Positions 11,360 to 35,423 of a stretch of 64,000 nt of DNA are shown piece by piece. The stretch's first letter is position 1, and each line of letters begins with the position of its first letter. The notes beneath the pieces were generated by a model, which made no database searches, was not told where the DNA came from, and worked only from the letters and a program-made list of their open reading frames with translations. The DNA comes from Oscillospiraceae bacterium (lineage in GTDB: Bacteria; Bacillota; Clostridia; Oscillospirales; Ruminococcaceae), in the NCBI GenBank assembly GCA_022508895.1, contig JAFLUH010000002.1:1-64000 (forward strand). Reading direction: 5' to 3'. The translations under genes and the position numbers were made by a program.

Positions 11360-12241
11360 ATGAAAGGCATGATCCTCGCCGGCGGCAAAGGCACCCGTCT
11401 CTACCCCAGCACCATCGCAGTCAGCAAGCAGCTGCTGCCCATATACGACAAGCCCCTCATATACTACCCGCTGTCCGTTCTTATGCTGGCAAGCATTCAG
11501 GACATTCTGATAATCTCCACGCCTCAGCACGTCGAGAGCTACCGGGAACTGCTACGCGACGGCTCCCAGCTCGGTATACATATCGAGTACAAGGTGCAGG
11601 GAACGCCCCGTGGACTTGCCGACGCATTTATTATAGGCGAGGAGTTTATCGGAAACGACAGCGTATGCTTAGTCCTCGGCGACAACGTGTTTTACGGGCA
11701 GTATTTTACGAACCTGCTGAACAACGCAAAGCAGCAGGCAGAAGCCTCAGGCGCAGCCATCTTCGGTTATCCCGTAAAAAATCCCAGTGAATTCGGCGTG
11801 GTAGAGTTTGATGAAAACAATCATGTTATTTCCCTTGAAGAAAAGCCGAAGCACCCCAAATCCACCTTTGCCGTTCCCGGACTGTATTTTTATGACAACA
11901 GCGTGGTGGAGATCGCAAAAAACGTCACGCCCTCCGCCCGTGGAGAGATAGAGATAACCTCGGTCAACAACACCTATCTTGAACAGGGAAAGCTGCGTGT
12001 AACGCTTATGGGCAGAGGAATGGCGTGGCTTGATACCGGCTCACCCAAGGGAATGCACAAGGCGGGAGATTTCGTAAAAACGGTGCAGGAAATGCAGGGT
12101 TTTTACATTTCCTGTATCGAGGAGATAGCATGGCGGCGCGGATTTATCACCTTGGAGCAGCTTCACTCTCTGGGTGAGCAAATGAAAATGACCGATTACG
12201 GAAAGTACATTTTATCGCTGAGGCAGGAGGACGGGCTGTGA
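11360..12241 (+). CDS. rmlA: glucose-1-phosphate thymidylyltransferase RmlA
   Basis: 293-aa nucleotidyltransferase that makes dTDP-glucose from dTTP and glucose-1-phosphate, the first step of dTDP-deoxysugar synthesis. The signature [16 protein letters not shown] opens the protein and [16 protein letters not shown] follows, as in all RmlA proteins. The length is standard. It overlaps rmlB by 4 nt (GTGA), which implies translational coupling. No RmlC or RmlD is present in the window, so the pathway here appears directed to the amino/formamido sugar rather than to dTDP-rhamnose, unless those genes lie elsewhere. Confidence 0.97.
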
Positions 12242-13233
12242 AGATCATTGTGACCGGCGGAGCAGGATTTATCGGCTCAAACTTTATTTTTTACCTGAGA
12301 AAAAAATATCCCGATTACAGGATAGTTTGTATCGACAAGCTGACATACGCAGGTAACCTGCATACGCTTAAAGGTATATTGAACAGCGAAAATTTCAGGT
12401 TTGTCAAGGCGGATATATGCGACCGCAAAGCTGTTGATCCTTTGTTTGCGGAGGAACGCCCCGATATTGTGGTAAATTTTGCCGCAGAATCCCATGTTGA
12501 CCGCTCTATCGAGAATCCTGAGATATTTCTTCAGACAAATATAATCGGCACTGCCGTTCTTATGGACGCCTGCCGTGAGTACGGGATAAAGCGGTTCCAT
12601 CAGGTCTCCACCGACGAGGTATACGGCGACCTGCCCCTTGACCGCCCCGACCTGTTTTTCACCGAGCGGACACCCCCGCACACCAGCAGCCCATACAGCT
12701 CCTCAAAGGCGTCCGCAGACCTTCTTGCCCTTGCCTATCACAGAACCTATCAGCTTCCTGTCACCATCAGCCGCTGCTCCAACAACTACGGTCCTTACCA
12801 ATTCCCTGAAAAGCTGATACCGCTGATGATCGTCAACGCCCTTAACGACAAGCCCCTTCCCGTTTACGGTGAGGGAATAAATGTCCGTGACTGGCTTTAC
12901 GTCGAGGATCACTGCAAGGCTATCGATATGATAATCCATAACGGCAAAGACGGCGAGGTCTACAATGTGGGCGGTCACAACGAGATGAGAAACATGGACA
13001 TCGTAAAGCTGATCTGCAAAGAGCTGGGAAAACCCGAATCACTGATAGAACACGTTACCGACCGCAAGGGTCATGACATGAGATATGCCATAGACCCCGC
13101 AAAAATTCATGCCGAGCTTGGCTGGCTGCCTGACACTAAGTTTGAAAACGGCATAAAGACCACAATAAACTGGTATATTAACAACAAAAATTGGTGGGAA
13201 AGCATCTTAAACGGAGCTTACAGGAATTACTGA
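12238..13233 (+). CDS. rmlB: dTDP-glucose 4,6-dehydratase RmlB
   Basis: 331-aa extended short-chain dehydrogenase that converts dTDP-glucose to dTDP-4-keto-6-deoxyglucose. The NAD-binding [12 protein letters not shown] is at the N terminus, STDEVYGDL follows, and the catalytic YxxxK is in [30 protein letters not shown] is characteristic of RmlB. It starts with GTG at 12238, overlapping the rmlA stop. Its product is the expected substrate of the VioA-like aminotransferase just upstream. Confidence 0.97.
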
Positions 13234-14688: not shown

Positions 14689-14694
14689 TCGCAC

Positions 14695-18406: not shown

Positions 18407-18431
18407 CTACGAAAGGAAAGGAACAGGAAAA

Positions 18432-20011: not shown

Positions 20012-20044
20012 GCATTTATATACCGAAAAAAGGAGCATACGAAC

Positions 20045-21559
20045 ATGAGCAACCAAAAGGACAATGTAATAATGCAGCAAACCGAGCTGCTGAAAAACAC
20101 GACCGAAATGACTGAATATCTCGATATCCTGAAAACGCTTCGGTCGGAATATCTTATCATACTCGGAGTGAAGGACTCGCCGGGCAAAAGAATGCTTCCG
20201 TCTATGCTGCAGCAAATTCGTGAGCTCGGTTTTTCAAAGTTCGATAACAGCTTATGGTATATGTATGCAGGGATCATATACAAGTCTGAGGTGCTGCTTG
20301 ATGAGTCAGGCATGGTACCTGAAATGCCTGTTTTTTATGAAGGTGATATCGGCGGGTATCATATTGAAATAGGCAGCGAATCCTACTTGAAAGGGAATCG
20401 CAGTATAATTTCGATAGACGGGAACGACTATTCCACGGACGGGATAGGCGTGAATATTGTTGTCTATGACGTTTATAACAACCAGCTTGTTGATTCCATC
20501 GCTTATGATTCTCACAGCAACCCCGCCGGTATATTTAAAAGAGGAAAACGTGCGGCAGAATGTAAAAAAGTCAACACTGAAAGTGCTCTGATACAGATAC
20601 TCGGCAAATTGGAAGTTCTTACCCAAAAAATCGATTTAGAAAATTATAAAGCGGAGTATGTTCTCTGGAACAATGCCCGCATGGACGGCGAAACCACTTT
20701 GGACGCCAAAAAGCGCTTTTTCAGGTCTCTGCGGACGGCGGATCGGAATATGTTCATCTGGCAGAAAGCGACGACAATAATACTGGCAGAGTTTGGAAGA
20801 ATATGCAGGGAAAATAATATTGATTACTGGCTGGACTGCGGAACGCTTTTGGGAGCTGTACGTCACGGCGGTCCTATCCCGTGGGACGACGATATGGACA
20901 TAGGTATGCTGAGAAAGGACCTGCCTAAACTGGAAAAGGCCATTGCCGAAGCGGATACATTTATACGGCTGAACAAATTCTTTTCGATAATAGTTCCTTA
21001 TTATGCAATGAACGTTTACAGACTTCAGTTTAAAGATCCTTCTGCTGCTATGTTTGTTGACATTTTTATATATGACTACTGCGAAAGTGACAGCCTCGAA
21101 AGATGGCGCAAGCTCATAACGGACAGGGAAAGCTATTTTTCACAGTTGACTGAATTTGCACCTGTCGCCAAAGCTGAGCCGGGAAGGAGCATTGCTGAAT
21201 ATTTTGCCGTTACCGATCCGGATCATATCAGTGAGATCGCTTCGATCTCAAATAAGATATTGGAATCGTCTGAAACAGTCGAAAACGGTGATTACATAAT
21301 ATGGGGATTTGATAACTGCCCTTATGTAGAAAATAAAAAGCCTATTTACAGAACATCTGACATCTTTCCGCTGAAGGAACTGGAATTTAACGGTAAGCCG
21401 TATAAGGTTCCGAATCAATATGAAAAATATTTATATAAGTTTTATGGAGATATATATACTTTGCCCGACGACCTGCTGACACATATGCATGTTGATGTAT
21501 CACAGGAAGTGATAGATAAGTGCACTGAGATAATAGAGCAATATTCCGATAAGCTTTGA
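20045..21559 (+). CDS. LicD-family phosphotransferase with N-terminal FAM3/ILEI-like domain, copy 1
   Basis: 504-aa protein. Residues about 20-165 are the FAM3/ILEI-like domain: EYLDILKTLRSEYLIILGVKD, IRELGF, WYMYAGIIYKS, then a second half with ISIDG and GVNIVVYD. Residues about 240-500 are LicD, a nucleotidyltransferase-fold enzyme that moves phosphocholine-like groups from CDP or CMP donors to sugars. The core DYWLDCGTLLGAVRHGG and the metal-binding IPWDDDMDIGM (about 276-286) are intact. Ending a phosphonate operon, it most likely transfers a CMP-activated phosphonate to a glycan. It is a tandem paralogue of the next gene. Start ATG 20045 follows AAAGGAG. No membrane segment is seen. Confidence 0.87.
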   Translation: MSNQKDNVIMQQTELLKNTTEMTEYLDILKTLRSEYLIILGVKDSPGKRMLPSMLQQIRELGFSKFDNSLWYMYAGIIYKSEVLLDESGMVPEMPVFYEGDIGGYHIEIGSESYLKGNRSIISIDGNDYSTDGIGVNIVVYDVYNNQLVDSIAYDSHSNPAGIFKRGKRAAECKKVNTESALIQILGKLEVLTQKIDLENYKAEYVLWNNARMDGETTLDAKKRFFRSLRTADRNMFIWQKATTIILAEFGRICRENNIDYWLDCGTLLGAVRHGGPIPWDDDMDIGMLRKDLPKLEKAIAEADTFIRLNKFFSIIVPYYAMNVYRLQFKDPSAAMFVDIFIYDYCESDSLERWRKLITDRESYFSQLTEFAPVAKAEPGRSIAEYFAVTDPDHISEIASISNKILESSETVENGDYIIWGFDNCPYVENKKPIYRTSDIFPLKELEFNGKPYKVPNQYEKYLYKFYGDIYTLPDDLLTHMHVDVSQEVIDKCTEIIEQYSDKL

Positions 21560-21612
21560 TAAGCACTTGATATTTACGGCTGACCGCTACAAAAATAAAG
21601 GAGAATACGAAC

Positions 21613-23130
21613 ATGAGCAACCAAAAGAACAGCGCAATAATGCAGCAAACTGAACTGCTGAGAAACACTACCGAAATGATCGAATATCTCGATATTCTGA
21701 AAACACTCAGATCGGAATATCTTATCATACTCGGCGTGAAGGACACACCCGGCAGAAAAATGTTCCCGTCTATGATACGTCAAATTCGTGAGCTGGGATT
21801 TTCAAGGTTTGACAATCAGATGTGGTATATGTATGGCGGTATTATATACAAGTCTGAGGTCCTTCTTGATGAGTCAGGCATGGTGCCTGAAATGTCGGTT
21901 TGCCGCGAATGTGATATTGATGGGCACCGCATTGAAATAGTCAGCGAATCTTACATGAAAGGAAATCGCAGTATAATTTCAATAGACGGGAACAACTATT
22001 CCGCTGACGGTATAGGCGTGAATATCGTTGTTTATGACCTTGACAACAACGAGCTTGTCGATTCCGTTTCCTATGACACTCACCGCACGTTCTTCGGAAT
22101 GTTTACAAGAGGAGAGCGTACTGTGGAATGTAAAAAAATCGACACTGAAAATGCCTTGGTTCAGGTGCTTGGCAAATTGGACGCTCTGTCCCAAAAAATC
22201 GATCTGAATAATTACAAAACGAATTATGTCCTTTGGAATAATGCCCGCATTGATAGCGAGACCTCTTTGGACGCCAGAAAGCGCTTCTTCGGTTCTCTGC
22301 AGACAGAGGATCAAAAGATGGCTGTCTGGCAGAAATCAATGACGATACTGTTGGCTGAATTGGCAAGAATATGCGATGAAAATAATATTGATTACTGGCT
22401 GGATTGCGGAACACTTTTGGGAGCGGTTCGTCACAAAGGCTTTATCCCTTGGGACGACGATATGGATATAAGCATGATGAGAAAGGACCTGCCCAGACTG
22501 GAAAAAGCAATTGCCGAAGCGGATACATTTATACGGCTGAATAGCTTCTTTTCGATACGACCGGCTCCTCATGCAGCTACCCTGCATAAAGTTCAATTTA
22601 AAGATCCTCTTGCCGATCCGTTTGTTGATATTTTTTTCTTTGATTATTGTGAAAATGACAGCATCGAACGCTGGCATAAATACATGAAAGACAGGGAAAA
22701 TTATTCATCACAAGTGGCTAAATATGAGCCTATTCCCAATAATGACCCGGGAAAGAGCCGCTCTTTTTGGTACGCTGTTACCGATCAGGATCACATAAAT
22801 GAGCTTACTTCAATTTCAAATAAAATGTTGAGTTCCTCCGAAACGATAGAAAACGGAGAATATATAATTGTAGGATTTGACAAGTACCCTTATTCAAAGG
22901 ACAGAAAACGTATTTACAGGGTATCTGATGTCTTTCCGCTGAAGGAATTGGAATTCGGCGGAAGGCTGTATAAGGTCCCGAATAATTATGAAAGATATTT
23001 GGATGTATTTTTCGGAGAAGATATATATACTTTGCCCAACGATATGATAATTCATCAGCATTTTGAAATATCCCAGGAAATGGTGGATAAGTGTACTGAA
23101 CTAATAGAAAAATACTCCGACAAGCACTGA
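21613..23130 (+). CDS. LicD-family phosphotransferase with N-terminal FAM3/ILEI-like domain, copy 2
   Basis: 505-aa tandem paralogue of the preceding gene, nearly colinear over its whole length. The N-terminal domain (SEYLIILGVKDTPG, IRELGFSRFDN, WYMYGGIIYKS, then SIDGNNYSADGIGVNIVVYD) and the LicD core (DYWLDCGTLLGAVRHKG, IPWDDDMDI) are conserved. The segment after the DDD motif differs: copy 2 has SIRPAPHAATLHKV where copy 1 has SIIVPYYAMNVYRL. This suggests a different acceptor or a different phosphonate donor, matching the presence of two cytidylyltransferases. It is the last gene of the operon before a strong terminator. Start ATG 21613 follows AAAGGAGAA. Confidence 0.87.
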   Translation: MSNQKNSAIMQQTELLRNTTEMIEYLDILKTLRSEYLIILGVKDTPGRKMFPSMIRQIRELGFSRFDNQMWYMYGGIIYKSEVLLDESGMVPEMSVCRECDIDGHRIEIVSESYMKGNRSIISIDGNNYSADGIGVNIVVYDLDNNELVDSVSYDTHRTFFGMFTRGERTVECKKIDTENALVQVLGKLDALSQKIDLNNYKTNYVLWNNARIDSETSLDARKRFFGSLQTEDQKMAVWQKSMTILLAELARICDENNIDYWLDCGTLLGAVRHKGFIPWDDDMDISMMRKDLPRLEKAIAEADTFIRLNSFFSIRPAPHAATLHKVQFKDPLADPFVDIFFFDYCENDSIERWHKYMKDRENYSSQVAKYEPIPNNDPGKSRSFWYAVTDQDHINELTSISNKMLSSSETIENGEYIIVGFDKYPYSKDRKRIYRVSDVFPLKELEFGGRLYKVPNNYERYLDVFFGEDIYTLPNDMIIHQHFEISQEMVDKCTELIEKYSDKH

Positions 23131-23227: not shown

Positions 23228-25546
23228 TTAAACCTTTACCGTCCTCGTAAACCTCTCAACCAGATCGTACCCGTCCCAAACCAGATCAAAATCCATCGTA
23301 TGTCCAATCGGCACAACACGGTCCACACCCTTGATGCCCGACCTGAGCAGCGGCTCCACTATCGCTTTATCCCCAAGCAAGCCTATAGTCTGACAATGAG
23401 TATCATTGCAGAAATCCCGTACCGCCATAATATCATCGCAGTCATATTCATAGAAATATCCGGAATTTCCCCTATGCTCCATAAGCTCATGGGGCAGCTC
23501 TGACACCTGAACTCTCACAAGCCGGTTGTCGCCCCCGTGTACGCATTTCATGCCGCATATCCCGCAGGCAGCCGCAGTATATTCCGTGGCAAGCTTATCC
23601 ACTCCCTGTATCGGCTGAAACAGGTATCTTTCCTTTACCGGTGCGGACAGACTATCCCAGAATATCTCCTTTGCTTCCTCTTTTGCGCCGCCTGTCCATA
23701 CCACCGCACGGGGACTTGAGCAGGCATTCTGATCGGATAAATAGGTATCGTTGTAAAAATCGGCTGCAATGCGTGCTGCCGCCTTGCCGTCATCGCTCAC
23801 TGCACGCATATACTCGTCGGAATCTATCACCGCCAGCGAGTAGCGGTCAGCAAATGTTATCTCTGTCGCTCTTGGCGGCAGCGGTGATTTGCGCAGCTCC
23901 GCAACGGTATCGTCGCCGCCCCAGATAACACGCACATCGCACATAGCCGACAGCATATCGTTGATCTCCCTATCACGCTCATACCGCAGCAATACGATAT
24001 ACGGCTTCATATCGGGGTGCTTTTCAAGTGCTGCACAGATAGCCCCGTTGATTATCCTCACCTGCGGGAACTCCCTTGAGGTTACTCTCACCGCATTTGC
24101 GTTGCCGCAGAGCAGCCCCGCAAAAAGCGAATACGCATAGTTCACCGGCACATTCGAGGGCGCAACATGAAAAGCCGCCCCACGTCCCACACGCAGCTCA
24201 CCGTCCGGCACGAACCTCTTCTTCATAGCCAAAACCGAGGATTTCCTCAGCCAGAAGCCCAGAGTTGCCACATCGGGAAACGCCTTTGCCTCAGCACTTT
24301 GCATAAGCTCCTTCGACAGATCGTTCAGAAAGTCGATTATATCGTCGCCGAAAGGCATTTTAGGCGCAGCCTTGGGAATATTCAGCAGCGTCTCCCTGTT
24401 TCCGATAAGATAGGTGATCTTATCCGATGCCGAAGCTTCGGTATCGCCTTTATTTACGGCACGCTCAGCCGCAAAGGTATCGCTGCAGCCCCGCAGCTCC
24501 GCATTTTTGAGCCGTCCCAGTATCCTGAAATACTTGCCCTTCCGTCCGCAGGGGCAGTCGTCCTCGCCCAGTATCACGCCCTCGTCCTCGGTGAGCAGAC
24601 AATGTCCGGGATAGGATTCGGGAATGGTCGATACTACCTGAAGTATACCCCTTTCCCCTATCTCGCACTCGGAAAAATCCTCCGGTCTTCTTGCGATAAC
24701 GTCGGAAAAAACGCTTGCGTGCAGATGCCCCTGCTCGCACTCCATATAAATGCAGCCGGTCTGCTCCACCATACCGTAGTAATCATGGATATGCTCCAGT
24801 CCGCACACGTCCTTCAATGCCCTGCGAAACTCCTCGGGACTTACCGCTTCGCCGGCAAGCTTTTTCCAGCCGCCGCCGTGTATCAGTATCCCGTGGGACA
24901 GGTCAAAGCTCATGCCCTCGCCCTTTAAGCGCAGCAGCTCCTTGTAAAAATACTGCCACACCATAAAGGTAAAGCCGAAAAGGAGTATCCTCTGTCCCTT
25001 ATTCTGCTCCAAAAAAGCCTGCAAGCCCGACCTGTCAAGCTGCATATCGTCGTTCAGCGCATATATCTTCTTTGCGCCGAAAATCGAAAAGCCCAGTATA
25101 CCTGCGCCTCTTGCCGAAAACATATTGCGGTCCTTCACCACCGAGGGGCAGTCCAGTATTATCATGGGCATTCTGGCTGAGCCTGTGAAGTCGTTCACTA
25201 TCTTGACCATAGCCTTTTGCTGGTTGGAGGAGGTGGTGCGGTCAAGGTAAATTTTTGACACCTTCTGCCCCGACGTCCCCGAGGAGGTCATGGTCTTCAC
25301 TATTCCGTCCTCGGAAACGCTTTTCAGCGACAGCTCCTTGAAAAGCCTGACAGGGAGAAAGGGGATATCCCTGTATGAGCTTACCTTTTGTCCGTCGTAT
25401 GAAACGGCGTTTAAAATGCGAGCATATTCGGGGCAATTTTTTCTGTGATGCTCGGTAAGCTCCGCCAGTCTTTCGGTGAGCAGCCTTTCCTTTTCCGCCT
25501 TTTCAAGGGAATAAGGCGAAATATTCAGCAATTCCTCAAAGCTCAC
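23228..25546 (-). CDS. LuxE acyl-protein synthetase fused to LuxC acyl reductase
   Basis: 772-aa fusion. Residues about 1-370 are LuxE-like, an acyl-adenylating and acyl-transferring domain, with the nucleotide loop MTSSGTSGQKVSKIY and DYYGMVEQTG. About 390-772 are LuxC-like, an NADPH-dependent fatty acyl reductase that makes an aldehyde. Its catalytic cysteine is in QNACSSPR (about 609), the same context as in LuxC. In bioluminescence these reside on separate proteins. Here they are one chain in an operon with an acyl carrier protein, an acyl ligase and a thioesterase, so the role is probably reduction of a carrier-bound acyl group to an aldehyde for glycan or glycolipid synthesis. No luciferase genes are present. 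The start is GTG 25546, two bases after the thioesterase stop. It is the last gene of its operon. Confidence 0.88.
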   Translation of the reverse strand: MSFEELLNISPYSLEKAEKERLLTERLAELTEHHRKNCPEYARILNAVSYDGQKVSSYRDIPFLPVRLFKELSLKSVSEDGIVKTMTSSGTSGQKVSKIYLDRTTSSNQQKAMVKIVNDFTGSARMPMIILDCPSVVKDRNMFSARGAGILGFSIFGAKKIYALNDDMQLDRSGLQAFLEQNKGQRILLFGFTFMVWQYFYKELLRLKGEGMSFDLSHGILIHGGGWKKLAGEAVSPEEFRRALKDVCGLEHIHDYYGMVEQTGCIYMECEQGHLHASVFSDVIARRPEDFSECEIGERGILQVVSTIPESYPGHCLLTEDEGVILGEDDCPCGRKGKYFRILGRLKNAELRGCSDTFAAERAVNKGDTEASASDKITYLIGNRETLLNIPKAAPKMPFGDDIIDFLNDLSKELMQSAEAKAFPDVATLGFWLRKSSVLAMKKRFVPDGELRVGRGAAFHVAPSNVPVNYAYSLFAGLLCGNANAVRVTSREFPQVRIINGAICAALEKHPDMKPYIVLLRYERDREINDMLSAMCDVRVIWGGDDTVAELRKSPLPPRATEITFADRYSLAVIDSDEYMRAVSDDGKAAARIAADFYNDTYLSDQNACSSPRAVVWTGGAKEEAKEIFWDSLSAPVKERYLFQPIQGVDKLATEYTAAACGICGMKCVHGGDNRLVRVQVSELPHELMEHRGNSGYFYEYDCDDIMAVRDFCNDTHCQTIGLLGDKAIVEPLLRSGIKGVDRVVPIGHTMDFDLVWDGYDLVERFTRTVKV

Positions 25547-25548: not shown

Positions 25549-26241
25549 CTACACCCCCAATTTTTCCATGATAAGCTCCGCCACTTTTTCGCAGTGCTTA
25601 TTGATAAAGAAATGTCCGCCCGTATATTCCGCAAGCTCGCAGCAGCCTGTAAAATGCCTTTTCCACAGCTCCATTTCCTCTCTTGGGATATCCTCCGGCG
25701 AATAAAGAAGCAGTGCGGGAATATCCGTTGTAAAATCAATGCCTTCAAAATCATATCTGCCGATCATCAGGTAGTCCGCCTTAAAAAGCGGCAGATAAAT
25801 ACGCCAGAAGGTCTCGCTGTCCACAAGCTGCTCAGGTATCCCACCGAAGCGAATGGTTACTTCCCGTGTATATTCGTCCAATTTGTCGGGATCGCACCGT
25901 GTCAGATTGACCACCAGCTTAGGCTGATGCGAAGCCATAAAAATATATTTGGGAGCGGGCAGCTCTTTGGTTTTTGTCACATACCGCAAAACCTCCAGCG
26001 CCGCAACACACCCCATGCTGTACCCCAGCAGCGCATATTCTCCGCCGCTGTATTTTTCCCGCATCTGCGCATACAGATCCCGTGATAGCTCCTGATATGT
26101 CTCGCAGAACTTTTCCTTGCGCCTTGTGCCATGACCGGGGTACTCCAGCTTTACAAGCTCTGTTTTCCCTTCAAGGGCTTTCCCAAGCTCATTAAAAAAT
26201 GCAGCCGTTCCGCCTGCATAGGTAAAGCAAAAAAGCTGCAT
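25549..26241 (-). CDS. type II thioesterase
   Basis: 230-aa alpha/beta hydrolase of the GrsT/RifR type that hydrolyses acyl groups from carrier proteins. The nucleophile is in GYSMG, the acid in LYSPEDIP, and the histidine in YTGGHFFINKH. The opening LFCFTYAGG is the usual oxyanion-hole strand of this family. Such enzymes edit stalled or wrong acyl chains, and here the partner would be the acyl carrier protein at 33144. Start ATG 26241 follows GGAGGCAG. Confidence 0.87.
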   Translation of the reverse strand: MQLFCFTYAGGTAAFFNELGKALEGKTELVKLEYPGHGTRRKEKFCETYQELSRDLYAQMREKYSGGEYALLGYSMGCVAALEVLRYVTKTKELPAPKYIFMASHQPKLVVNLTRCDPDKLDEYTREVTIRFGGIPEQLVDSETFWRIYLPLFKADYLMIGRYDFEGIDFTTDIPALLLYSPEDIPREEMELWKRHFTGCCELAEYTGGHFFINKHCEKVAELIMEKLGV

Positions 26242-26252: not shown

Positions 26253-27668
26253 TTACCGATAGTATTTTTCCAGTTCCTTGTATAACGTTTTTCCCGAATC
26301 GTTTTTAGGTATCTCGCTTACCACCACCGTCTTGAACGCCGCCGGATTAAGCCCCGTTTTAGCCGCAGCAAAGCTCTTTACCTCTTCGGCGATTTCCCCG
26401 TCCGTAACAAAAATATACATATGGTCGTCCACCCCTGCGCTGGCGCAGTCTATGTTGTCAAACCGTGCTTTTATCAGTCGGTCTATCTCGTCAAGATTCA
26501 CCCGATTGCCGTATATCTTCAGAAATCTCTTTTTCCTGCCCACGATATAGTAATATCCGTCCTCGTCGAACTGCGCCATATCGCCGGTCTGCAGCACGCC
26601 GCCCCGTTCGTCTCCCTTTATCAGGTCCTCGCCCCGTTCCGCATAGCCCGGGGTGACGTTATCTCCCTCGTAAACCAGCTCTCCGGTCACATGAGGTTCC
26701 GTAATATCCTGCCCGTCAGCGTCTGTCAGGCGGAATTTCCCGCCCGGGATAGCAATGCCCATTGACCCGCACTTTTCGATGGCTTTTTCCGCCGGAAGAT
26801 ACCCCATTCTGGCGGTAGCCTCGCACTGCCCGTACATGACGATGAACTTGGTCCCTTTCTCACAGGCATACTCGGCGAACTTCCTGTGCAGCTCAGGTGT
26901 CAGCTTTCCCCCTGCCTGAGTGGAATACCTGAGAGAGGGCAGCTCCATGCGGAAAAATCTCAGCCGCTCCAGCATTTCATAGGTGTAGGGGACCCCGCCG
27001 AAGGAGGTCGCCTCCTGCTCCTTGAAAAAGCTCCAGAACTCCTTCTGCATAAGCCCCTTATCGGTTAGAAGCAGCGTTGCCCCCACCAGAAGATGACTGT
27101 TTATGACGGACAGTCCGTAGGTGTAATTCATGGGCAGCGTGGAAATGGGGCGTTCCGTCTCGTTCAGCTCCAAATATTCCGCAATCGACCTTGCGTTTGA
27201 AAGCACGTTTTTATAGCTTTGACGGACGAACTTGGGACTGCCGGTGGAGCCGGAGGTGGTGAGCAGCAGCGCCAAATCGTCATGCAGGGGATACTCCCTG
27301 TTATATGCGGTTTTGAGCAGGGTGTAGTCGTAACATCCGTAAACAGGCTGCCACGGGAACATATCCGCCTGCTCAGCGGGCAGCCAGACAAATTTCGGCG
27401 CATAAGTCTCCAGCAGATTTGTCAGCAGCTCTTTTTCCAGATTTGCGCTGAGCAGCATGGGGACTATGCCGCTGTTCATAAATGAAACATACCCCGCAAC
27501 CGAGCCGATGGTGTTTTTGCAGAGTGAGGCAACAAGACATCTGCCGCCCGCTGCCTCTGCAAGCTCCCTACCCGTCCGATAAAGCTCACCGTAGGTCGCC
27601 GAAGTCCCAAGCTCGTCTGTGATTGCGGTATTATTCTCATATCTGAGCAGATCCCACATTTTATTCAT
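26253..27668 (-). CDS. acyl-AMP ligase (ANL superfamily)
   Basis: 471-aa adenylate-forming enzyme. The P-loop-like LLTTSGSTGSPKFV, MYGQCEATARM, TGDMAQFDEDGYYYIVGRKKR and the catalytic C-terminal lysine in PKNDSGKTLYKEL are all recognisable. It activates a carboxylic acid with ATP and, given a free-standing acyl carrier protein in the same operon, probably loads it onto that carrier. Its ATG overlaps the stop of the NeuB-like gene by 4 nt. The acid cannot be predicted: short hydroxy acids, fatty acids or amino acids are all possible. Confidence 0.88.
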   Translation of the reverse strand: MNKMWDLLRYENNTAITDELGTSATYGELYRTGRELAEAAGGRCLVASLCKNTIGSVAGYVSFMNSGIVPMLLSANLEKELLTNLLETYAPKFVWLPAEQADMFPWQPVYGCYDYTLLKTAYNREYPLHDDLALLLTTSGSTGSPKFVRQSYKNVLSNARSIAEYLELNETERPISTLPMNYTYGLSVINSHLLVGATLLLTDKGLMQKEFWSFFKEQEATSFGGVPYTYEMLERLRFFRMELPSLRYSTQAGGKLTPELHRKFAEYACEKGTKFIVMYGQCEATARMGYLPAEKAIEKCGSMGIAIPGGKFRLTDADGQDITEPHVTGELVYEGDNVTPGYAERGEDLIKGDERGGVLQTGDMAQFDEDGYYYIVGRKKRFLKIYGNRVNLDEIDRLIKARFDNIDCASAGVDDHMYIFVTDGEIAEEVKSFAAAKTGLNPAAFKTVVVSEIPKNDSGKTLYKELEKYYR

Positions 27669-28696
27669 TCAAAATCTTCCTGTACTATGAGAGTGTCCTT
27701 TTCCACCTTATGGGCAACGGTTCTGCCGATAAATTTAGGCATATCCTCGGGAGGGAAGCCCGTACCGGGGCGCTTTGCGTCGATATCCCCCTCGGCGATG
27801 ACCTCGCCCGCCTCCATATCTCTTGTATATATAAGGCTTCTGCGCATATTTTTCCGCTGTTCCAGCTCCGATTCAAATACCACTCTCTCCTTGGAGCCCC
27901 GTGCCGTCCACACGTTATGGCATTGCCGTACCATAAGCTTCATCTCGTCAGGCTCCGTCGCCATCTGGTTGTCCAGTCCTATCTTGGTTTTGTCAGGGGT
28001 GAGGTGCTTTTCGATAAGGCAGGCGCCCAAGGCAATTGCCGCCGCCGCCATTTCAGTTCCTGCGGAGTGATCGGAAAATCCCACGGGATAATTCGGGAAC
28101 TTTTCCTGCAAGCCCACGATGTTCAGCAGATTTATCTCGGATATTTCGGGGGGATAGACGGAAATGCAGTGCAAAAGGCAGATATCGTGATTACCCGCTT
28201 TTTCGATGGTGTCCACCGCACGGCAAACCTCCTCCATGGTGCCCATGCCCGTGGAAAGAATGACAGGCGCACCCTTTCTTGCGATATAATCGAGAAAAGG
28301 ATAATTGTTCAGCTCCATTGAGGATATCTTGATAAAGGGAGCGTCAGCCTCGTCTGCAAGGAAGTCAACCTCCTCACGGGAATAGGGAGTGGAGGAAAAA
28401 TCAACGCCCGCATTTTTGCAGTATTCCGCAAGCTCAAGGAGCTGCTCCGACGACAGCGACCATCTTTTGATAAACCGTGCCGCAATGGGATTTGCCCTGC
28501 TGTAAGTGCGGGAATACAGCGATTCGTCAGACCAGGACTGAAACTTCACGCAGTTGCAGCCGCAGTCCGCCGCTGCGTCTATCATCTGCTTGGCGGTCTC
28601 CATGTTCCCGTAGTGGCTGGAATTTACCTCTGCGATCACATAGGGCTTCTGCTCCCTGCCTATCTTAACTGAATTTCTTAAAGTAAACGTGGGCAT
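27665..28696 (-). CDS. neuB: NeuB-family sialic/nonulosonic acid synthase-like enzyme
   Basis: 343-aa enzyme that condenses phosphoenolpyruvate with an aldose to form a 2-keto-3-deoxy sugar acid. The TIM barrel carries AEVNSSHYGNMETAKQMIDAA, VKFQSW, STPYS, STGMGT, and FSDHS with EKHLT near the active site. A C-terminal SAF (antifreeze-like) domain follows (about 285-343, MEAGEVIAEGDI). Partner genes usual for sialic, legionaminic or pseudaminic acid (NeuA, NeuC) are absent from the window, so the substrate may not be a standard amino sugar. Start: the ORF extends to 28726, but ATG 28696 has AAGGAG 7 bp upstream and leaves a 19-nt gap after the TPP gene. Confidence 0.87.
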   Translation of the reverse strand: MPTFTLRNSVKIGREQKPYVIAEVNSSHYGNMETAKQMIDAAADCGCNCVKFQSWSDESLYSRTYSRANPIAARFIKRWSLSSEQLLELAEYCKNAGVDFSSTPYSREEVDFLADEADAPFIKISSMELNNYPFLDYIARKGAPVILSTGMGTMEEVCRAVDTIEKAGNHDICLLHCISVYPPEISEINLLNIVGLQEKFPNYPVGFSDHSAGTEMAAAAIALGACLIEKHLTPDKTKIGLDNQMATEPDEMKLMVRQCHNVWTARGSKERVVFESELEQRKNMRRSLIYTRDMEAGEVIAEGDIDAKRPGTGFPPEDMPKFIGRTVAHKVEKDTLIVQEDFE

Positions 28697-28715: not shown

Positions 28716-30503
28716 TTATTGATCAATAGGTTCTATCACCATTTCGCTGAGGAACAGCTCTCTGTCCAGAAACGGCGCCTGATCCTCAAGAGGACGCTGT
28801 ACAAAGCGTTTTTCCGACGTTCTTGCAATGGAGCAGGAAATGATATCCTGATCTTCAACGCCGTCTATCTCGCACAGCACCGCCCCGTTTTCGGCAAAGA
28901 CCTCGCCGAGCCTCTGCTCAAGCCCGCTGTCCTCCGCTATATGAACGTACTTCAGCCCGAAGCATTCCGCAGCCTTGGCAAAGTCCACCGTTCCCACGCC
29001 GTTTTCGGGGTCGGTGCCTGTGGTCCTTGTGCGGAAAAGCTCCTTCTGCCGCTTTCTGATGACCGAGTACACATTGTTGCTTATCACCAGTATCTTTATT
29101 GGCAGCTTGTTAAAATCCACCGTCGCCAGCTCCTGCAAATTCATCATTGCCGAGCCGTCCCCGATGACCGCAACAACGGGCTTGCCGCTTGAATAATACG
29201 CTCCTATCGCCGCAGGAAGCGCATAGCCCATCGCTCCCTGCGAGGTCGGGTGGATACAGCGGCGTTCGCCTGAGAACACCACGTTGGAGGGAATTATCAG
29301 CTCCTCCAGCCCTGCGTCGCTCAGCAGGACCGCATCATCGGGCAGGGAAGCGGAGAGAGCCTCCGCAAGGCGGTAAAGGTCAACCTTGTCTTTAACACGG
29401 TGAATATCCTCACACAGCGGGAAAGCTTCCTTCCAGTGCCGGCACTTCGCCGCCCACCCGCTGCGTCCGCCTGCGATGTCGCAGTTATTTATCTTATCCA
29501 GAAACGCCTTTACGTCCGAGACGATGAGCCTGTCTATCTTAACGGTATTCTTGGAGTGCTCGGTCTTGTCAACGTCCACCACAATCACCTTGGCTTCACG
29601 GGCAAATTTCGCATACTCGGAACCGGTGGTCATAGGCGAAAGCCGATTTCCCAGCACAAGCACAAGATCGGCGTTTTGCAGAGCAAAGCAGCCCGACCGT
29701 GAGCACGCCATCATTCCCGCACTGCCTATACAAAGCTCTCTGTCATAGCCGTAGGTATCGGGAGCAGACGCGCTGTAAACCACGGGAATGCCGTTTTTTT
29801 CGGCAAAGACCCTCAGCTCATCACAGGCATTTGCCCACCGTATCCCGCTGCCTATAAGCAGAACAGGTCTTTGCGAAGCGGCAAGCGTCTCGACTGTGTA
29901 GGCAATTTCCTCCTCGGTCGCCGCAGGGAGCGCCTCGTCGGGCACAAAATGCTCCTGCTCCTCAGGCTCGATACGCATATTCTGCACGTCAAGGGGAACG
30001 TCTATCCAGACAGGACCCTTTCTCCCATGCTGCGCAAGGTACAGCGCCTTTTCCATCTCATACACGATACGGCTCGGGTCGTCAAGCATAACGGCGTATT
30101 TGGTGATATGCTCTGCAAGGGAAACGATGTCCGCCTCCTGCTGTCCCCACGTTCTGAGCGGTATACCCGAATGCCTTGAGGTCTCTCTCAGGATATTCTG
30201 ACCCGAGACCACCACCATGGGAACTCCGTCCTGCCATGCGCACAGAACGCTTGTGAGAGCATTTGTGCCTGCGCAGCCCGTGGACACCAGACAGGCGCCC
30301 AGCTTTTCGTTATAGGAGGAATACGCCGAAGCGGCAAAAGCGCACGCCTGCTCATGGTGCATAGGCACAGGGACGATGCCCTCCGCCTTTGCGGCGGCGT
30401 CGGAGAGGTACAATACGCCTCTGCCGGTGATCATAAAGAGGTGCTTTACGCCTTCCTCGCTGAGTTTTTCCATTATGTAGTCGGCTGCTCTGACCATTTG
30501 CAT
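28716..30503 (-). CDS. second acetolactate-synthase-like TPP enzyme
   Basis: 595-aa TPP enzyme. The catalytic glutamate is in MHHEQACAFAASAYS, and the cofactor motif GDGSAMMNLQELATV ends in SNN, as in acetolactate synthase and relatives. It is longer at the C terminus than the 15708 paralogue, with a tail of about 60 residues (EDQDIISCSIARTSEK onward). It should form a carbon-carbon bond from a 2-keto acid and an aldehyde or ketose, or simply decarboxylate. Between a transketolase pair and a NeuB-like gene, a role in building a branched-chain or chain-extended sugar is likely. The start ATG 30503 has a weak site (GTGAGAGA), and a Met two residues later is an alternative. Confidence 0.82.
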   Translation of the reverse strand: MQMVRAADYIMEKLSEEGVKHLFMITGRGVLYLSDAAAKAEGIVPVPMHHEQACAFAASAYSSYNEKLGACLVSTGCAGTNALTSVLCAWQDGVPMVVVSGQNILRETSRHSGIPLRTWGQQEADIVSLAEHITKYAVMLDDPSRIVYEMEKALYLAQHGRKGPVWIDVPLDVQNMRIEPEEQEHFVPDEALPAATEEEIAYTVETLAASQRPVLLIGSGIRWANACDELRVFAEKNGIPVVYSASAPDTYGYDRELCIGSAGMMACSRSGCFALQNADLVLVLGNRLSPMTTGSEYAKFAREAKVIVVDVDKTEHSKNTVKIDRLIVSDVKAFLDKINNCDIAGGRSGWAAKCRHWKEAFPLCEDIHRVKDKVDLYRLAEALSASLPDDAVLLSDAGLEELIIPSNVVFSGERRCIHPTSQGAMGYALPAAIGAYYSSGKPVVAVIGDGSAMMNLQELATVDFNKLPIKILVISNNVYSVIRKRQKELFRTRTTGTDPENGVGTVDFAKAAECFGLKYVHIAEDSGLEQRLGEVFAENGAVLCEIDGVEDQDIISCSIARTSEKRFVQRPLEDQAPFLDRELFLSEMVIEPIDQ

Positions 30504-30523: not shown

Positions 30524-31492
30524 TTATTGCTTCATAAATTCCGCTATTTTCCCGGCAATTTTTTCCGCTGTCAGCCCGTATTTCTCCAGCATCGCTTCGT
30601 AAGAATCCGCAACGGGATAGCTGCTTGGCAAGCCGATCAGCAGCTGCGGAGGTTTGTGGGCGCAGGGTGATATTTCCTCTGCGACTGCCGAGCCAAGTCC
30701 GCCTGTTACGCTGTGCTCCTCGGCGGTGACAATAAGCTTGCAGTCAAGGCATTGCCTTATCATTTCGCCGTCCAGCGGTCTTATTGTGTGAATATCAATG
30801 ACGGAAGCGCTTATCCCCTGTTCCGACAGGGCTTCAGCCGCCTTCAGGGATTCCGCCACCATCGTTCCCGTAGCGATAATTGCCACGTCGATTCCGTCCC
30901 GCAGCTTTATTCCCTTGCCTATACGATAGTCGTAGTCCTCCTTGTATACGACGGGGGAGCCCATGGTGCCGGTCAGTCTGATATAAACCGGCTTATCCGA
31001 TTCGGCAGCGGCAAGGACCGCCTTTACCGTTTCGGTGGAATCGGCGGGGGACAGTATCGTTATGTTTGGTATGGAGCGTATTATCGCCATATCCTCCGTT
31101 CCGAGATGGGTGGCGCCTAAAAATCCGGCGCTGAGTCCTGCGGTAAGTCCCATCAGCTTTACAGGAAGCTGCATATATCCCATATTGACTCTGATCTGAT
31201 CGAGAGGTCTTGCCGATGCAAAGGAGGCGAAGGTGGAGGCAAAGACCTTATAGCCCTCGCTTGCCATTCCTGCTGCAACGGCTATCATATTCTGCTCCGA
31301 GATACCCACGTTGACGTAATTTTCGGGATAGCTTCTCCGAAACCTGTCAAGACCTGCATGAACGCCCAGATCGGCTTCCATCGCTATAATGCTCTTGTCG
31401 TTTTCCGCCAGATAACCCATCGCCATGGCGTGAGCGCCGCAGGAACCCAGCCTTGACCACATTCTGATATTAGCAGGTGTAAAATAACTCAT
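30524..31492 (-). CDS. transketolase-like protein, C-terminal (pyrimidine-binding) subunit
   Basis: 322-aa subunit of a split transketolase. It carries the Pyr domain with the glutamate that activates TPP in GISEQNMIAVAAGMA, and the C-terminal transketolase domain (ITAEEHSVTGGLGSAVAEE). It works with the N-terminal subunit encoded immediately upstream, with which it shares one base (TAATG). Split transketolases in polysaccharide loci transfer two-carbon units from a ketose donor. The acceptor here is unknown. Confidence 0.9.
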   Translation of the reverse strand: MSYFTPANIRMWSRLGSCGAHAMAMGYLAENDKSIIAMEADLGVHAGLDRFRRSYPENYVNVGISEQNMIAVAAGMASEGYKVFASTFASFASARPLDQIRVNMGYMQLPVKLMGLTAGLSAGFLGATHLGTEDMAIIRSIPNITILSPADSTETVKAVLAAAESDKPVYIRLTGTMGSPVVYKEDYDYRIGKGIKLRDGIDVAIIATGTMVAESLKAAEALSEQGISASVIDIHTIRPLDGEMIRQCLDCKLIVTAEEHSVTGGLGSAVAEEISPCAHKPPQLLIGLPSSYPVADSYEAMLEKYGLTAEKIAGKIAEFMKQ

Positions 31493-32316
31493 TATGCGCC
31501 TTCCATTTCCGCAATAGCCGTATTGAACTGACTTTCGTTCAGCCTTCCGCTGTGCCAGCTTGGGCTGTTTTCCATGAAGGATACGCCCTTGCCCTTTACC
31601 GTATCCGCAACGATAGCCACAGGCTTTTCGCTTCTGTATTCCAATGCGGTCAGCAGGGCCTCCATGTCGTGCCCGTCCACCGTTTTCGTATCCGGACCGA
31701 AGGCGGATATCTTTTCCGCAAGGTCCCCCATGGAAAGTATCTCCTCGGTAAATCCGTCATGCTGCAGGCGGTTGCGGTCCACGATGACGGTCAGATTGTC
31801 CAGCTTAAAGTGCGAGGCAGACGCCAGCGCCTCCCACACGGAGCCCTCGTTGCATTCTCCGTCACCTAACAGGACGAACACTCTTGCAGGATTACCCTTC
31901 TTTTTCAGTGCCATCGCAACGCCTACCGCCAGACATATCCCCTGACCGAGGCTGCCGGTGGAAAACTCTACGCCTATATCCCTGTCACGGGTGGAATGTG
32001 CATACAGTCTTGTACCGCTCTGCTTGAAGGTCATCAGCTCCTCGTCGGTGATCGCGCCTATCTGCTTCAGCGCCGCATACTGCGCCAGCGAGCAGTGCCC
32101 CTTGCTGAGTATGAACCTGTCTCGGTCGTCACTTTGGAGCTTCTCCTTACTGATATTCATAACGCCGACATACAGCGCCGCCATTATATCCATCGCCGAA
32201 AGCGTCCCGCCGATATGGGTGCCTGTTTTTCCGCCGGCATACATTGCACGGATAGCGTCTATCCGCATTTCCTTGGCTGCATTTCTGCATTTTTCCGCAA
32301 CAGAAGCATCGACCAT
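31492..32316 (-). CDS. transketolase-like protein, N-terminal (TPP-binding) subunit
   Basis: 274-aa partner of the C-terminal subunit. It binds the diphosphate of TPP through GDGECNEGSVWEA and metal ligands nearby. GGKTGTHIGGTLSAMDIM and SKGHCSLAQYA are standard transketolase segments. Its start shares one base with the stop of the SDR gene and its stop shares one base with the next start, so the three products are strongly coupled. Confidence 0.9.
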   Translation of the reverse strand: MVDASVAEKCRNAAKEMRIDAIRAMYAGGKTGTHIGGTLSAMDIMAALYVGVMNISKEKLQSDDRDRFILSKGHCSLAQYAALKQIGAITDEELMTFKQSGTRLYAHSTRDRDIGVEFSTGSLGQGICLAVGVAMALKKKGNPARVFVLLGDGECNEGSVWEALASASHFKLDNLTVIVDRNRLQHDGFTEEILSMGDLAEKISAFGPDTKTVDGHDMEALLTALEYRSEKPVAIVADTVKGKGVSFMENSPSWHSGRLNESQFNTAIAEMEGA

Positions 32317-33059
32317 CAGTACAAACCTCCATCTACTCTTAAAACCTGACCCGTGACAAAGCTGGACATATCCGACGCTAAGAACAGAATTGCATTTGCT
32401 ATCTCTCTCGGCTCTGCGTCCCGTTTCATGATGCAGTGGTTCAGTGTATTCTCATGAATTTGTTCGACCATATTTTCGTCCACCATTTTTGTCTTGGTGA
32501 TACCGGGCGCAACGGCGTTTACCCTTATGCCGTATTCTCCCAGCTCGATGGCGGATTCCTTTGTCGAACCTATCATTGCCGCTTTGCTTGAAGCATATTC
32601 AAAATTGCCGGGCGACCCGAGAATGGCTGAAACGGAGGAAACGTTCACGATGCTTCCGCTCTTGTTCCTTGACATCATTCTGGCGATATACTGGGTAAGC
32701 ACAGTCTGACCAAAGAAATTCACTTCAAAGACCCGTCTTATCTTGTCGATGGGCGTCATCTGGTACGGCGTGTATTCCAGCACCATGCCTGCGTTGTTGA
32801 CAAGGATATCAACGGTCTTTGTATTCTTGGTAAGGGCTCTGACAGCCTCCTTTATGCTTGCTTCGCTGCCGATGTCGCATTCAATGACGTGAACGGCAGC
32901 TCCCTGAGCCGTCAATTGCGATATATGCTCCGTGAGATCGGGACGTTCCTCCCTTACAAAGGCATAGACCTCCGCACGGTTCTCGCAAAAAAGGTCTAAG
33001 CAGGCACGCCCGATACCTCCGGCAGCCCCCGTGATCACAGCAATTTTACCTGACAGCAT
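32316..33059 (-). CDS. short-chain dehydrogenase/reductase (FabG-like)
   Basis: 247-aa classical SDR with TGAAGGIG for NAD(P) binding, NNAGMV, the catalytic serine strand (VNVSSVSA) and YASSK. It could reduce a 3-ketoacyl group on the adjacent acyl carrier protein or a keto sugar from the transketolase. Gene order (ACP, SDR, transketolase) does not decide between them. One-base overlap with the transketolase N subunit. Confidence 0.88.
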   Translation of the reverse strand: MLSGKIAVITGAAGGIGRACLDLFCENRAEVYAFVREERPDLTEHISQLTAQGAAVHVIECDIGSEASIKEAVRALTKNTKTVDILVNNAGMVLEYTPYQMTPIDKIRRVFEVNFFGQTVLTQYIARMMSRNKSGSIVNVSSVSAILGSPGNFEYASSKAAMIGSTKESAIELGEYGIRVNAVAPGITKTKMVDENMVEQIHENTLNHCIMKRDAEPREIANAILFLASDMSSFVTGQVLRVDGGLY

Positions 33060-33143: not shown

Positions 33144-33380
33144 TCACACGGTCACCTCATACTTGGCGAGAATTTCCTTGCCCTTTTCGTATGAGCTGAA
33201 ATCAATGATGTCGTCTGTCTCCATCATGATATCAAAGCCGTCCTCGAGAGCTGCGACAAGGTTCATGTGACCTACGCTGTCCCATTCGGGGATAGCTTGG
33301 TATTCCAGCCCTGCAAGGGCGCCTTCTTCAACTCCGAACGCTTCCTTGAAAGCGTTATTGTAGATTTCCAGATTAGACAT
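33144..33380 (-). CDS. acyl carrier protein
   Basis: 78-aa small acidic carrier with the phosphopantetheine attachment serine at S35 in PEWDSVGHMN. DSV replaces the DSL of primary fatty acid ACPs, as is usual for dedicated carriers. It should carry an acyl group loaded by the acyl-AMP ligase, edited by the thioesterase and reduced by LuxE-LuxC. Start: the ORF runs to 33410, but ATG 33380 has GGAGGAAA upstream and gives a standard ACP length. Confidence 0.92.
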   Translation of the reverse strand: MSNLEIYNNAFKEAFGVEEGALAGLEYQAIPEWDSVGHMNLVAALEDGFDIMMETDDIIDFSSYEKGKEILAKYEVTV

Positions 33381-33444: not shown

Positions 33445-34464
33445 CTAATTCGGCCGATCCTGATCTGCGTCCGCTTTGAAGAAAAGCGCCCCCTCAACGG
33501 ACGCATGAGTATATATCTCTATGTTTCTCCGCTCAAAGGGGTGAAAATAATTGGGAATGATATTGCCGTCATTCTCAGTCCTCAGCACAAAGCCTGCGTC
33601 CAGGATATAAGCCTCCTCAAAGCCCTCGCAGTAAAAGTCGATATATTCGTACTCCTTTTCCCGCACCAGACCGCAGAAAAACAGATACAGCTTCCCGAAG
33701 CGCTTTTGCTCGCCCAGAAAGTCCACGATACGAAGCGCCTTTCTGCCGAAGACTTCCTCCTCTCTTACCACAAAGAAAGCCTCTATGCGCTCTCCCGAAA
33801 ATATTCCGTAGGTGTCATAGTGATATATCGGGTGCCTGAAAAACCGCTTGCCTATATAATATGCGTCCTTGCAGGGAACGATCTCCTTACACTTTGCAAA
33901 ATCAAACCCTTCCTGCAGCTCCTCTATGGAATTTATCTTCCGCACGTCCACATTTTCAACCGGCTTGCCGCACTGCTCCGGAAAATGCACGATCTCGGCG
34001 ATCCTAAACTCCTTGCAGTTCCCCAAAAAATAGTACTGCTTCAGCTTGCCCATCACACGGTGGTGCATTCTTTTGATCAGTGGCACTGCCGTATTAGGAT
34101 TCAGTCCCACGCCCAGGCTGTGTTTGCACTCGCACAGTCGGTTCATTCTGAGCGTAAGCTCCATGCCGAGAAACGGCATATTCCCGTCCTTCACCTTCCA
34201 CAGGCTGCCCCATATATCCGTGCCGGTCTTGCCCTCAGAGGCTTTCAGAAAGCCCTGTATACCCTCCAGACTCCCCGTTTCCCTCTTTATCGCAAGGGCA
34301 AAGTTTACCGTCCCGTCCTCCTCCAAAAACTCATACTCGAAAAACTCCCTGTTTTCAGCAAGTATATGTCCCTTTTTCCAGTATGTATCTATAAACTCCA
34401 TGATAACGGGAATATCGTCTTTTCGTGCCAGCCGTATCTCGTACACTTCATCGTAGCGGCTCAT
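33445..34464 (-). CDS. GNAT-like acyltransferase of glycan loci
   Basis: 339-aa protein beginning with a GNAT-like strand-helix (YEIRLARKDDIPVIMEFI) and probably built of two GNAT-type folds. No canonical acetyl-CoA loop is unambiguous. The second half, with FFVVREEE and LRIVDFLG, looks like the FemX-type arrangement. Proteins of this shape accompany NodB-type deacetylases in surface polysaccharide clusters. It may transfer an acyl or aminoacyl group, perhaps from the ACP encoded 64 bp downstream, to an amino sugar. It lies 5 bp after the deacetylase gene. The function is an inference from fold and context. Confidence 0.6.
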   Translation of the reverse strand: MSRYDEVYEIRLARKDDIPVIMEFIDTYWKKGHILAENREFFEYEFLEEDGTVNFALAIKRETGSLEGIQGFLKASEGKTGTDIWGSLWKVKDGNMPFLGMELTLRMNRLCECKHSLGVGLNPNTAVPLIKRMHHRVMGKLKQYYFLGNCKEFRIAEIVHFPEQCGKPVENVDVRKINSIEELQEGFDFAKCKEIVPCKDAYYIGKRFFRHPIYHYDTYGIFSGERIEAFFVVREEEVFGRKALRIVDFLGEQKRFGKLYLFFCGLVREKEYEYIDFYCEGFEEAYILDAGFVLRTENDGNIIPNYFHPFERRNIEIYTHASVEGALFFKADADQDRPN

Positions 34465-34469: not shown

Positions 34470-35423
34470 TTATTTCTCCTTATAGCTTTCACTTACGGGC
34501 GGGAAATCGTTGCAGTCCAGCCTCGGCAGCTCAAGGGCGTTATCCTTTCCTATCTCTGCGGCTCTCACTGCGGTGGTAAGCCCCAGACAGGCGCCCTCGC
34601 TCCTTACATATTCCAGCACGTCCCGATCATAATTGCCGTAAGGATAATTCATGACCCAGCGTTTCCTGTCTATGAACTCGTCCAGAGCCTCCAGCCCCTT
34701 GGAAATATCCCGCTTCATCTGCTCCGGTGGCAGGTTTCCCAGCCAGTAATGATCGTACCCGTGAACGCCGATAAACATACCGTGCCGCTTCATGGTGCGT
34801 ATCTGGTCCTCCGTCATATAAAGCTCGTAGGCGAGCTGCTCCTCCGCAACTCCCACATACTTTTCAAAAAGCTCGCTTGAAATGGTATTTCTCAGCCTTT
34901 CGGGAAGCGCCGTCTGGAGCATTCTCTTTACAAAGACGGTTTCCTTTGCGTCAAAGCGGTTGGCGACCGCATACTCGCTGAACAGTTCCTCCGTGGCAGG
35001 GTAGTCATACTCGGCTCCCCGATAACGGTCCATCTGCTTCTTCACGTCCTCCGTCAGCTCGTAAATATCTGCGCTTGCCAGAATGTAGTGTATTTTGTTT
35101 ACGTCCAGCAGCTTATGCTCGGCAAAGGTTTTGCCCGGAATAAAAAAAGAGCCCTGAACATGAAATTCTTCCAGAAGGGGGAGAGCAAAGGCGTAGTTAT
35201 CCGCATAGCCGTCGTCGAAGGTCAGCAGCAGCGCATTTTCGGGAAGCTCAGACCTTCCCTCGGCAGCGTCCGTGACCTGTTCCATGGTCACCGCATTGAA
35301 ATTGCTTTTCATGAATTCGAGCTGGCGGCGGAACAGAGCGGTGTCCAGCCCCTTGATCTGCGGGTATCTGCTGTGCTTCAGATCTCTGGTATAGTGATAC
35401 ATGCAAATATATAATCTGCTCAT
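34470..35423 (-). CDS. NodB-type polysaccharide deacetylase
   Basis: 317-aa carbohydrate esterase 4 family protein that removes N-acetyl (or O-acyl) groups. TFDDGYADN supplies the catalytic Asp and the first metal Asp, VHGYDH the two metal histidines, and NYPYGNYD the third motif, so it looks active. There is no signal peptide, so it would act on a cytoplasmic intermediate. It is the first gene of the minus-strand operon, 52 bp from the predicted transcription start. A deacetylase followed by an acyltransferase-like protein suggests replacement of an N-acetyl by another acyl group. Confidence 0.87.
   Translation of the reverse strand: MSRLYICMYHYTRDLKHSRYPQIKGLDTALFRRQLEFMKSNFNAVTMEQVTDAAEGRSELPENALLLTFDDGYADNYAFALPLLEEFHVQGSFFIPGKTFAEHKLLDVNKIHYILASADIYELTEDVKKQMDRYRGAEYDYPATEELFSEYAVANRFDAKETVFVKRMLQTALPERLRNTISSELFEKYVGVAEEQLAYELYMTEDQIRTMKRHGMFIGVHGYDHYWLGNLPPEQMKRDISKGLEALDEFIDRKRWVMNYPYGNYDRDVLEYVRSEGACLGLTTAVRAAEIGKDNALELPRLDCNDFPPVSESYKEK

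Follow-up and report, generated by a model that had tools for sequence, protein, structure and literature searches.

What reaction does a NeuB-type synthase perform when it is encoded among acyl-handling genes, with no neuA or neuC partner beside it? The gene that raises this question lies on the minus strand of the window, by which we mean the whole stretch of 64,000 nucleotides analysed here (most of contig C88, from an assembly of 2.37 Mb and 175 contigs that is 100% complete). It is intact, with an AAGGAG upstream of the ATG at 28696 and a stop at 27665, and it encodes 343 amino acids; the plus strand has no open frame from 27665. According to the Pfam scores the protein belongs to the NeuB superfamily (NeuB domain PF03102, 1e-76, 258 bits against a gathering threshold of 22.1; SAF domain PF08666, 1.7e-8, 35.4 bits against 21), which bears out the first-pass annotation of a synthase with barrel motifs and a SAF domain. 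It scores below both equivalog cut-offs of the characterised families, reaching 309.4 bits with TIGR03569 (NCBIfam N-acetylneuraminate synthase; cut-off 399.65) and 266.7 bits with TIGR03586 (NCBIfam pseudaminic acid synthase, PseI; cut-off 340.25).

The gene is part of a minus-strand run, given here from its likely first gene onwards and followed by one feature of the opposite strand:

34470..35423, minus strand: polysaccharide deacetylase, with which the operon likely starts (Polysacc_deac_1, 1.9e-23; 5 bp gap)
33445..34464, minus strand: uncharacterised protein, read by eye as GNAT-like, that probably belongs to the operon (64 bp separate it from the ACP gene on this strand; no Pfam match)
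33144..33380, minus strand: acyl carrier protein (ACP), 78 aa, with DSVGHM phosphopantetheine site (homologous small ORFs; GGAGG before the ATG)
32316..33059, minus strand: SDR, FabG-like reductase (adh_short_C2, 1.1e-60)
31492..32316, minus strand: split transketolase, N-terminal half (Transketolase_N, 1.6e-36)
30524..31492, minus strand: split transketolase, C-terminal half (Transket_pyr/Transketolase_C; top PDB match the Carboxydothermus split transketolase 6yaj, 5.1e-64)
28716..30503, minus strand: ThDP lyase ALS2, YerE/JanthE-like, apart from acetolactate synthases (JanthE 8rph, 7.5e-102; tree)
27665..28696, minus strand: NeuB-type PEP aldol synthase, TIM barrel plus SAF, with catalytic residues kept and pocket altered
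26253..27668, minus strand: AMP-dependent acid ligase, presumed to load acyl groups on ACP (AMP-binding, 1.6e-41)
25549..26241, minus strand: type II thioesterase (Thioesterase, 3.4e-29)
23228..25546, minus strand: LuxE-LuxC fusion, acyl-protein synthetase plus acyl-thioester reductase (LuxE 2.9e-56, LuxC 3.5e-27)
11360..13233, plus strand: RmlA- and RmlB-like genes, read from translations, with a putative role in acceptor supply

From the SDR gene through LuxE-LuxC the intergenic gaps are -4 to 20 bp, and the NeuB gene overlaps that of the AMP-ligase by 4 bp. The split transketolase, ALS-like enzyme and acyl-handling genes are as first described; the ACP and the SDR are further members of the operon, which thereby holds all five gene types of what we call the cassette (ACP, AMP-ligase, LuxE, LuxC and SDR). 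The ACP has no Pfam match; its homologues are small ORFs beside AMP-ligase or LuxE genes in relatives, with D34-S35 invariant. The TSGSTGSPK motif and the C-terminal Lys of the AMP-ligase are likewise invariant. When the LuxE-LuxC fusion is aligned to the LuxC-LuxE complex structure 7xc6, its RGC and QNAC cysteines match cysteines and are candidate catalytic residues.

Statements on the source genome as a whole are based on profile searches. CTP_transf_3 (NeuA) and Epimerase_2 (NeuC) gave no match on the window's contig, in agreement with the earlier claim that NeuA and NeuC genes are missing from the 64 kb, and Pse- or Leg-type genes were not seen among the window ORFs (translations read by eye, about 20 ORFs scanned with Pfam). 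Genome-wide, NeuA gave a single strong match and NeuC a single match; both are on contig C141, as is the only other full NeuB, in a cluster ordered neuD-like, neuB, SGNH, neuA, neuC. The partners absent from the window locus are therefore present only on C141, with another NeuB; the window enzyme is a divergent paralogue, extra to the one of that cluster.

Relatives were searched for in the family (249 genomes), by scanning the contigs of 84,980 species genomes for peptide patterns, which added one further locus, and at the genus, order, class and phylum levels. Altogether three close homologues of 53-56% identity were found, in genome G159 (locus L021), in a Lachnospiraceae MAG (L030) and on a 4-kb contig of G639 (L052), a genome of the same genus that is 87% complete. 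No further cassette member came from the order, class and phylum searches, which used a NeuB profile of three rows; the viral and phage collections held only distant NeuBs, and the clade has four members in all searches. Two other strong matches are not cassette members: the NeuB of G1234 (2e-96) is located in a legionaminic-type locus near flagellin, and that of G961 (1.5e-113) adjoins a neuA-like gene. A literature search that combined NeuB, transketolase and acyl carrier protein had no result.

The neighbourhood of these homologues is conserved in content and variable in order. L021 reads ACP-ligase-LuxE-LuxC-SDR-NeuB, L030 reads FabA-like x2-ALS2-NeuB-ACP-ligase-TE-LuxE-LuxC, and L052 reads LuxE-LuxC-SDR-NeuB. 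Thus LuxE and LuxC adjoin NeuB in all four clade loci, the window included, with the gene order taking at least three forms; ACP and AMP-ligase are present in each of the three loci whose length would reveal both. Among about 26 other NeuB loci read, LuxE/LuxC is near NeuB in one, that of the PseI in G159. If the loci were independent, the chance of this linkage would be about 2e-4 (5/27405, calculated by hand); because the four NeuBs are related, more weight belongs to the diversity of their gene orders.

In a maximum-likelihood tree of 30 NeuBs, the four cassette proteins form one clade (support 100/97), joined next by the NeuB of L055 (100/99). The clade is separate from PseI 8h2c, from the C141 NeuB and from the single SpsE reference included (1vli), whereas the NeuB/SiaC of Neisseria meningitidis (NmNeuB) is on a very long branch and its exact placement is unsure. 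The PseI of G159 groups with 8h2c and the cassette NeuB of the same genome does not. The first-pass annotation had named two observations as counting against an unusual acceptor, complete sialic or legionaminic acid genes in another part of the genome and a place within a characterised clade; a full set of sialic acid genes is indeed present on C141, but the tree does not place the window protein with any characterised clade.

The positions compared with NmNeuB (residue list from PMC6795526) that are catalytic are all kept in the cassette NeuBs; in the window protein these are H210, H231, K51, K123, S126, S148, S208, T103 and R309, comprising the metal-binding His pair, the Lys, Ser and Thr residues for PEP and the Arg of the SAF domain. 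The Arg that places the N-acetyl group in NmNeuB is kept as well, a point against an altered acceptor, although it is likewise present in 26 of the 26 other NeuBs aligned. On the other hand, pocket positions 57, 112, 133 and 248 (N. meningitidis numbering) and their neighbours are uniformly altered in all four, the window protein having W55, Y105, S106, M127 and N243. His57 is replaced by Trp (Phe or Tyr elsewhere), Phe112 by Tyr (Phe in 25 of 26 others), the residue after it by Ser (Asp in 23 of 26), and Gly133 by Met, and the His of the GPDH motif, present in 23 of 26 others, is Asn (GLDN). Several of these residues are common to L055.

With N. meningitidis NeuB/SiaC (1xuu/1xuz, TIGR03569) the window protein has the domain architecture, Mn-binding His, PEP-binding residues and Arg314 in common; it differs in its score below the cut-off, its own pocket residues, its separate clade and its lack of neuA/neuC linkage. 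PseI (8h2c, TIGR03586) belongs to the same superfamily, and a transketolase cassette in G159 adjoins a pseudaminic cluster, but the window score is 267 bits against 340.25 and the cassette NeuB is outside the PseI branch. The spore-coat synthase SpsE (1vli) is also of the NeuB-type family, on a different branch and in a neighbourhood other than the cassette. The nearest NeuB outside the clade, L055 133-2682, has neuA-like and neuD-like neighbours, no obvious neuC, and FQSW and SM(E/D) motifs in common with the cassette proteins; it may be intermediate in substrate range.

The cassette is also found without NeuB. On the contig of its NeuB cassette, at a distance of about 41 kb, G159 has a second copy, ACP-ligase-LuxE-LuxC-SDR-TKn-TKc, next to the pseudaminic cluster, in which the transketolase halves occupy the position that NeuB has in the first. 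In a LuxE tree the two G159 copies are joined (97/90) and the NeuB- and transketolase-linked cassettes are interleaved, while the NeuBs remain one clade. Further NeuB-free cassettes are present in G814 (transketolase), G717 and G792 (transketolase, ALS2 and HMGL aldolase), Rhizobium (transketolase), Deinococcus and Ponticoccus; by locus, L104, L083 and L093 carry a split transketolase and L092 no recognised partner enzyme. Because transketolase fills the slot of NeuB in the second G159 cassette, the two enzymes look like alternatives and not like consecutive steps. In two other loci read by eye, L084 and L085, AMP-ligase, LuxE, LuxC and ACP (the last recognised in L084 only) are found among apparent genes for 4-hydroxybutyryl-CoA dehydratase and CoA-transferase, a hint that the cassette can accept short C4 acids.

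The five gene types have been described together before. Flagellin glycosylation islands of Aeromonas group II (PMC7874193) and of Enterobacteriaceae (PMC4875605) carry ACP, FabG, AMP ligase, LuxE and LuxC genes; the role of these genes was left open, with a "liposugar" as the guessed product. As far as the consulted parts of these papers go, the islands resemble the window operon in clustering the five types within surface-glycan loci, and the PseI of the pse genes is the only NeuB type mentioned, whereas the window operon combines a NeuB of a distinct clade with a split transketolase and a YerE-like lyase.

This lyase, ALS2, has JanthE (8rph, 345 bits) as its top PDB match, against 213 bits for AHAS I, and it groups with JanthE apart from AHAS (100/100), so that a true acetolactate synthase was rejected. 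A second candidate for the partner lyase, ALS1 (15708-17306), was also rejected, since its long branch falls with AHAS and its gene is part of a phosphonate cluster. ALS2 falls in the group of YerE, ErwE, MMAR_2332 and JanthE; its ThDP motif is GDG where JanthE has CDG, and the aldol enzyme next to it is NeuB. YerE-like lyases couple units derived from 2-oxo acids to keto sugars, and ErwE is reported to refuse pyruvate and to prefer 4-hydroxy-2-oxo acids (PMC12247030). More distant ALS2 homologues adjoin an HMGL aldolase (L128, L130, L132) or an HpcH/HpaI aldolase (L129, L131), with neither in L127, and the subclade nearest to that of the window and L030, which have NeuB as partner, is that of G717 and G792, which have HMGL. 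NeuB thus occupies the slot that a 2-oxo-acid aldolase has beside related lyases. The HMGL aldolases beside YerE-like lyases in L079, L081, L128, L130 and L132 are 526-546 aa long, with about 200 extra residues lacking a Pfam match.

Two aspects of the lyase concern its generality and its acceptor. First, no YerE-like lyase was detected in G159 or in G639 (87% complete), hence the lyase step cannot be general; a plasmid search with ALS2 gave nothing at 1e-70. Second, several of the distant homologue loci carry RfbF/G/H, for CDP-4-keto-3,6-dideoxyglucose, but neither these nor CDP-glucose genes were seen in the window, which makes the acceptor sugar a guess. The RmlA- and RmlB-like genes, about 15 kb from ALS2 on the opposite strand, are a possible source of a 4-keto-6-deoxy sugar acceptor.

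What function, then, could the window NeuB perform? The enzymes of its family join PEP to an aldehyde and give products of the 4-hydroxy-2-oxo acid class. The sequence itself shows what the genes encode, how tightly the operon is packed, that the linkage is conserved, that the NeuBs form a clade of their own with an altered pocket, and that modules are swapped; in what follows, all substrates, the order of the reactions and the product are inferred from it. The reading that we favour, tentatively and at somewhat less than even confidence, is that the window NeuB still works as a PEP-dependent aldol synthase and has left nonulosonic acid synthesis for a route from acid through aldehyde and 4-hydroxy-2-oxo acid to sugar. 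The AMP-ligase would load a carboxylic acid, probably a small one, on the dedicated ACP, LuxE/LuxC would reduce the acyl thioester to an aldehyde, and NeuB would add PEP to this aldehyde to give a 4-hydroxy-2-oxo acid. The YerE-like lyase would then decarboxylate this acid and couple the unit to a keto (or aldehyde) sugar, and the SDR and split transketolase could reduce or extend it further, so that a surface glycan would receive a sugar that is C-branched or chain-extended. In the relatives lacking the lyase (G159, G639) the NeuB product would have to go elsewhere. An acceptor other than a ManNAc-type sugar, perhaps an acyl-derived aldehyde, had been proposed at the outset; the LuxE/LuxC linkage, the ACP and AMP-ligase, the distinct clade and the pocket changes all fit this proposal, and the aldehyde itself is a putative substrate.

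It is unlikely, in our estimation, that NeuB acts upstream instead, joining PEP to an ordinary aldose or triose to give a 2-oxo-3-deoxy acid that the SDR would reduce, the AMP-ligase load on ACP and LuxE/LuxC reduce at C1 to a 3-deoxy aldose three carbons longer. The ligase needs a carboxylic acid and NeuB makes one, NeuB is the only recognised C-C-forming enzyme of the L021 cassette, which has three SDRs, and the order in L052 would also suit this scheme. However, the NeuB-free cassettes (L104, L083, L093, L092) indicate that the acid need not come from NeuB, and the adjacent YerE-like lyase is left unexplained. Somewhat more doubtful is an ordinary synthase of Neu5Ac, legionaminic or Kdn type, whose sugar supply and CMP activation would come from genes elsewhere, e.g. 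on C141. The neuA and neuC genes there, the standard residue core and domains, and the neuA-like gene adjoining the sister sequence L055 are in keeping with it; C141 has its own NeuB, however, and the scores below both cut-offs (309 < 399.65 and 267 < 340.25), the position outside both reference branches, the GLDN replacement and the linkage to LuxE/LuxC speak against it.

A transketolase product had also been suggested as the acceptor. In such a scheme the split transketolase would extend the LuxC aldehyde and an isomerisation would give the aldose used by NeuB. All the genes are in one window operon, and split-gene transketolases have been proposed in branched-sugar biosynthesis (PMC12247030), but the NeuBs of L021, L030 and L052 (the last locus only 4 kb) were seen to have no transketolase beside them, no isomerase gene was recognised, and in G159 transketolase and NeuB fill the same slot of separate cassettes, which makes this improbable. 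That NeuB is an unrelated or dying passenger is very improbable: the mosaic nature of polysaccharide loci and the small number of members found, four, would allow it, but the 4-bp overlap with the AMP-ligase, the intact catalytic residues and a linkage that persists although the gene order takes at least three forms argue otherwise.

Returning to NeuB as a synthase acting on a LuxE/LuxC aldehyde, it is possible, though we hold it with less assurance than the role of the window protein itself, that surface-glycan loci contain a modular system for building sugars de novo, with a common acid-to-aldehyde cassette (AMP-ligase, ACP, LuxE, LuxC, SDR) and swappable C-C-forming enzymes. These would be a repurposed NeuB (adding three carbons from PEP), a split transketolase (adding two) or an HMGL aldolase, and YerE-like lyases would join what these make to keto sugars; some NeuBs would then be 4-hydroxy-2-oxo-acid synthases with no nonulosonic product. 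If so, part of a family routinely annotated as sialic acid or related synthases performs different chemistry, and such genes are miscalled as sialic acid production. The "liposugar" genes ACP/LuxE/LuxC of many flagellin and polysaccharide loci would receive a concrete, testable role, and the hydroxy-2-oxo acids that ErwE-type lyases reportedly need would have a further enzymatic source.

Other clusters of the window concern glycans as well. The plus-strand genes at 13381-23130 encode a fused cytidylyltransferase-PEP mutase, HMGL aldolase, ALS1, Fe-ADH, a second cytidylyltransferase, a phosphonopyruvate decarboxylase-like enzyme and two LicD proteins; this phosphonate cluster probably makes hydroxyethyl- or aminoethyl-phosphonate and transfers it to glycan, though it is not obvious where HMGL and ALS1, as a pair, would fit into such a route. 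At 9372-13233 (plus strand) a sugar N-formyltransferase, a DegT aminotransferase and the RmlA- and RmlB-like genes likely lead to an N-formylated dTDP-amino sugar. Finally, two proteins look alike by eye, one encoded at window 5600-7069 beside the glycan locus and the other at L007 2479-3945 beside the neuC of C141; both are possibly polysialyl- or capsule-type transferases.
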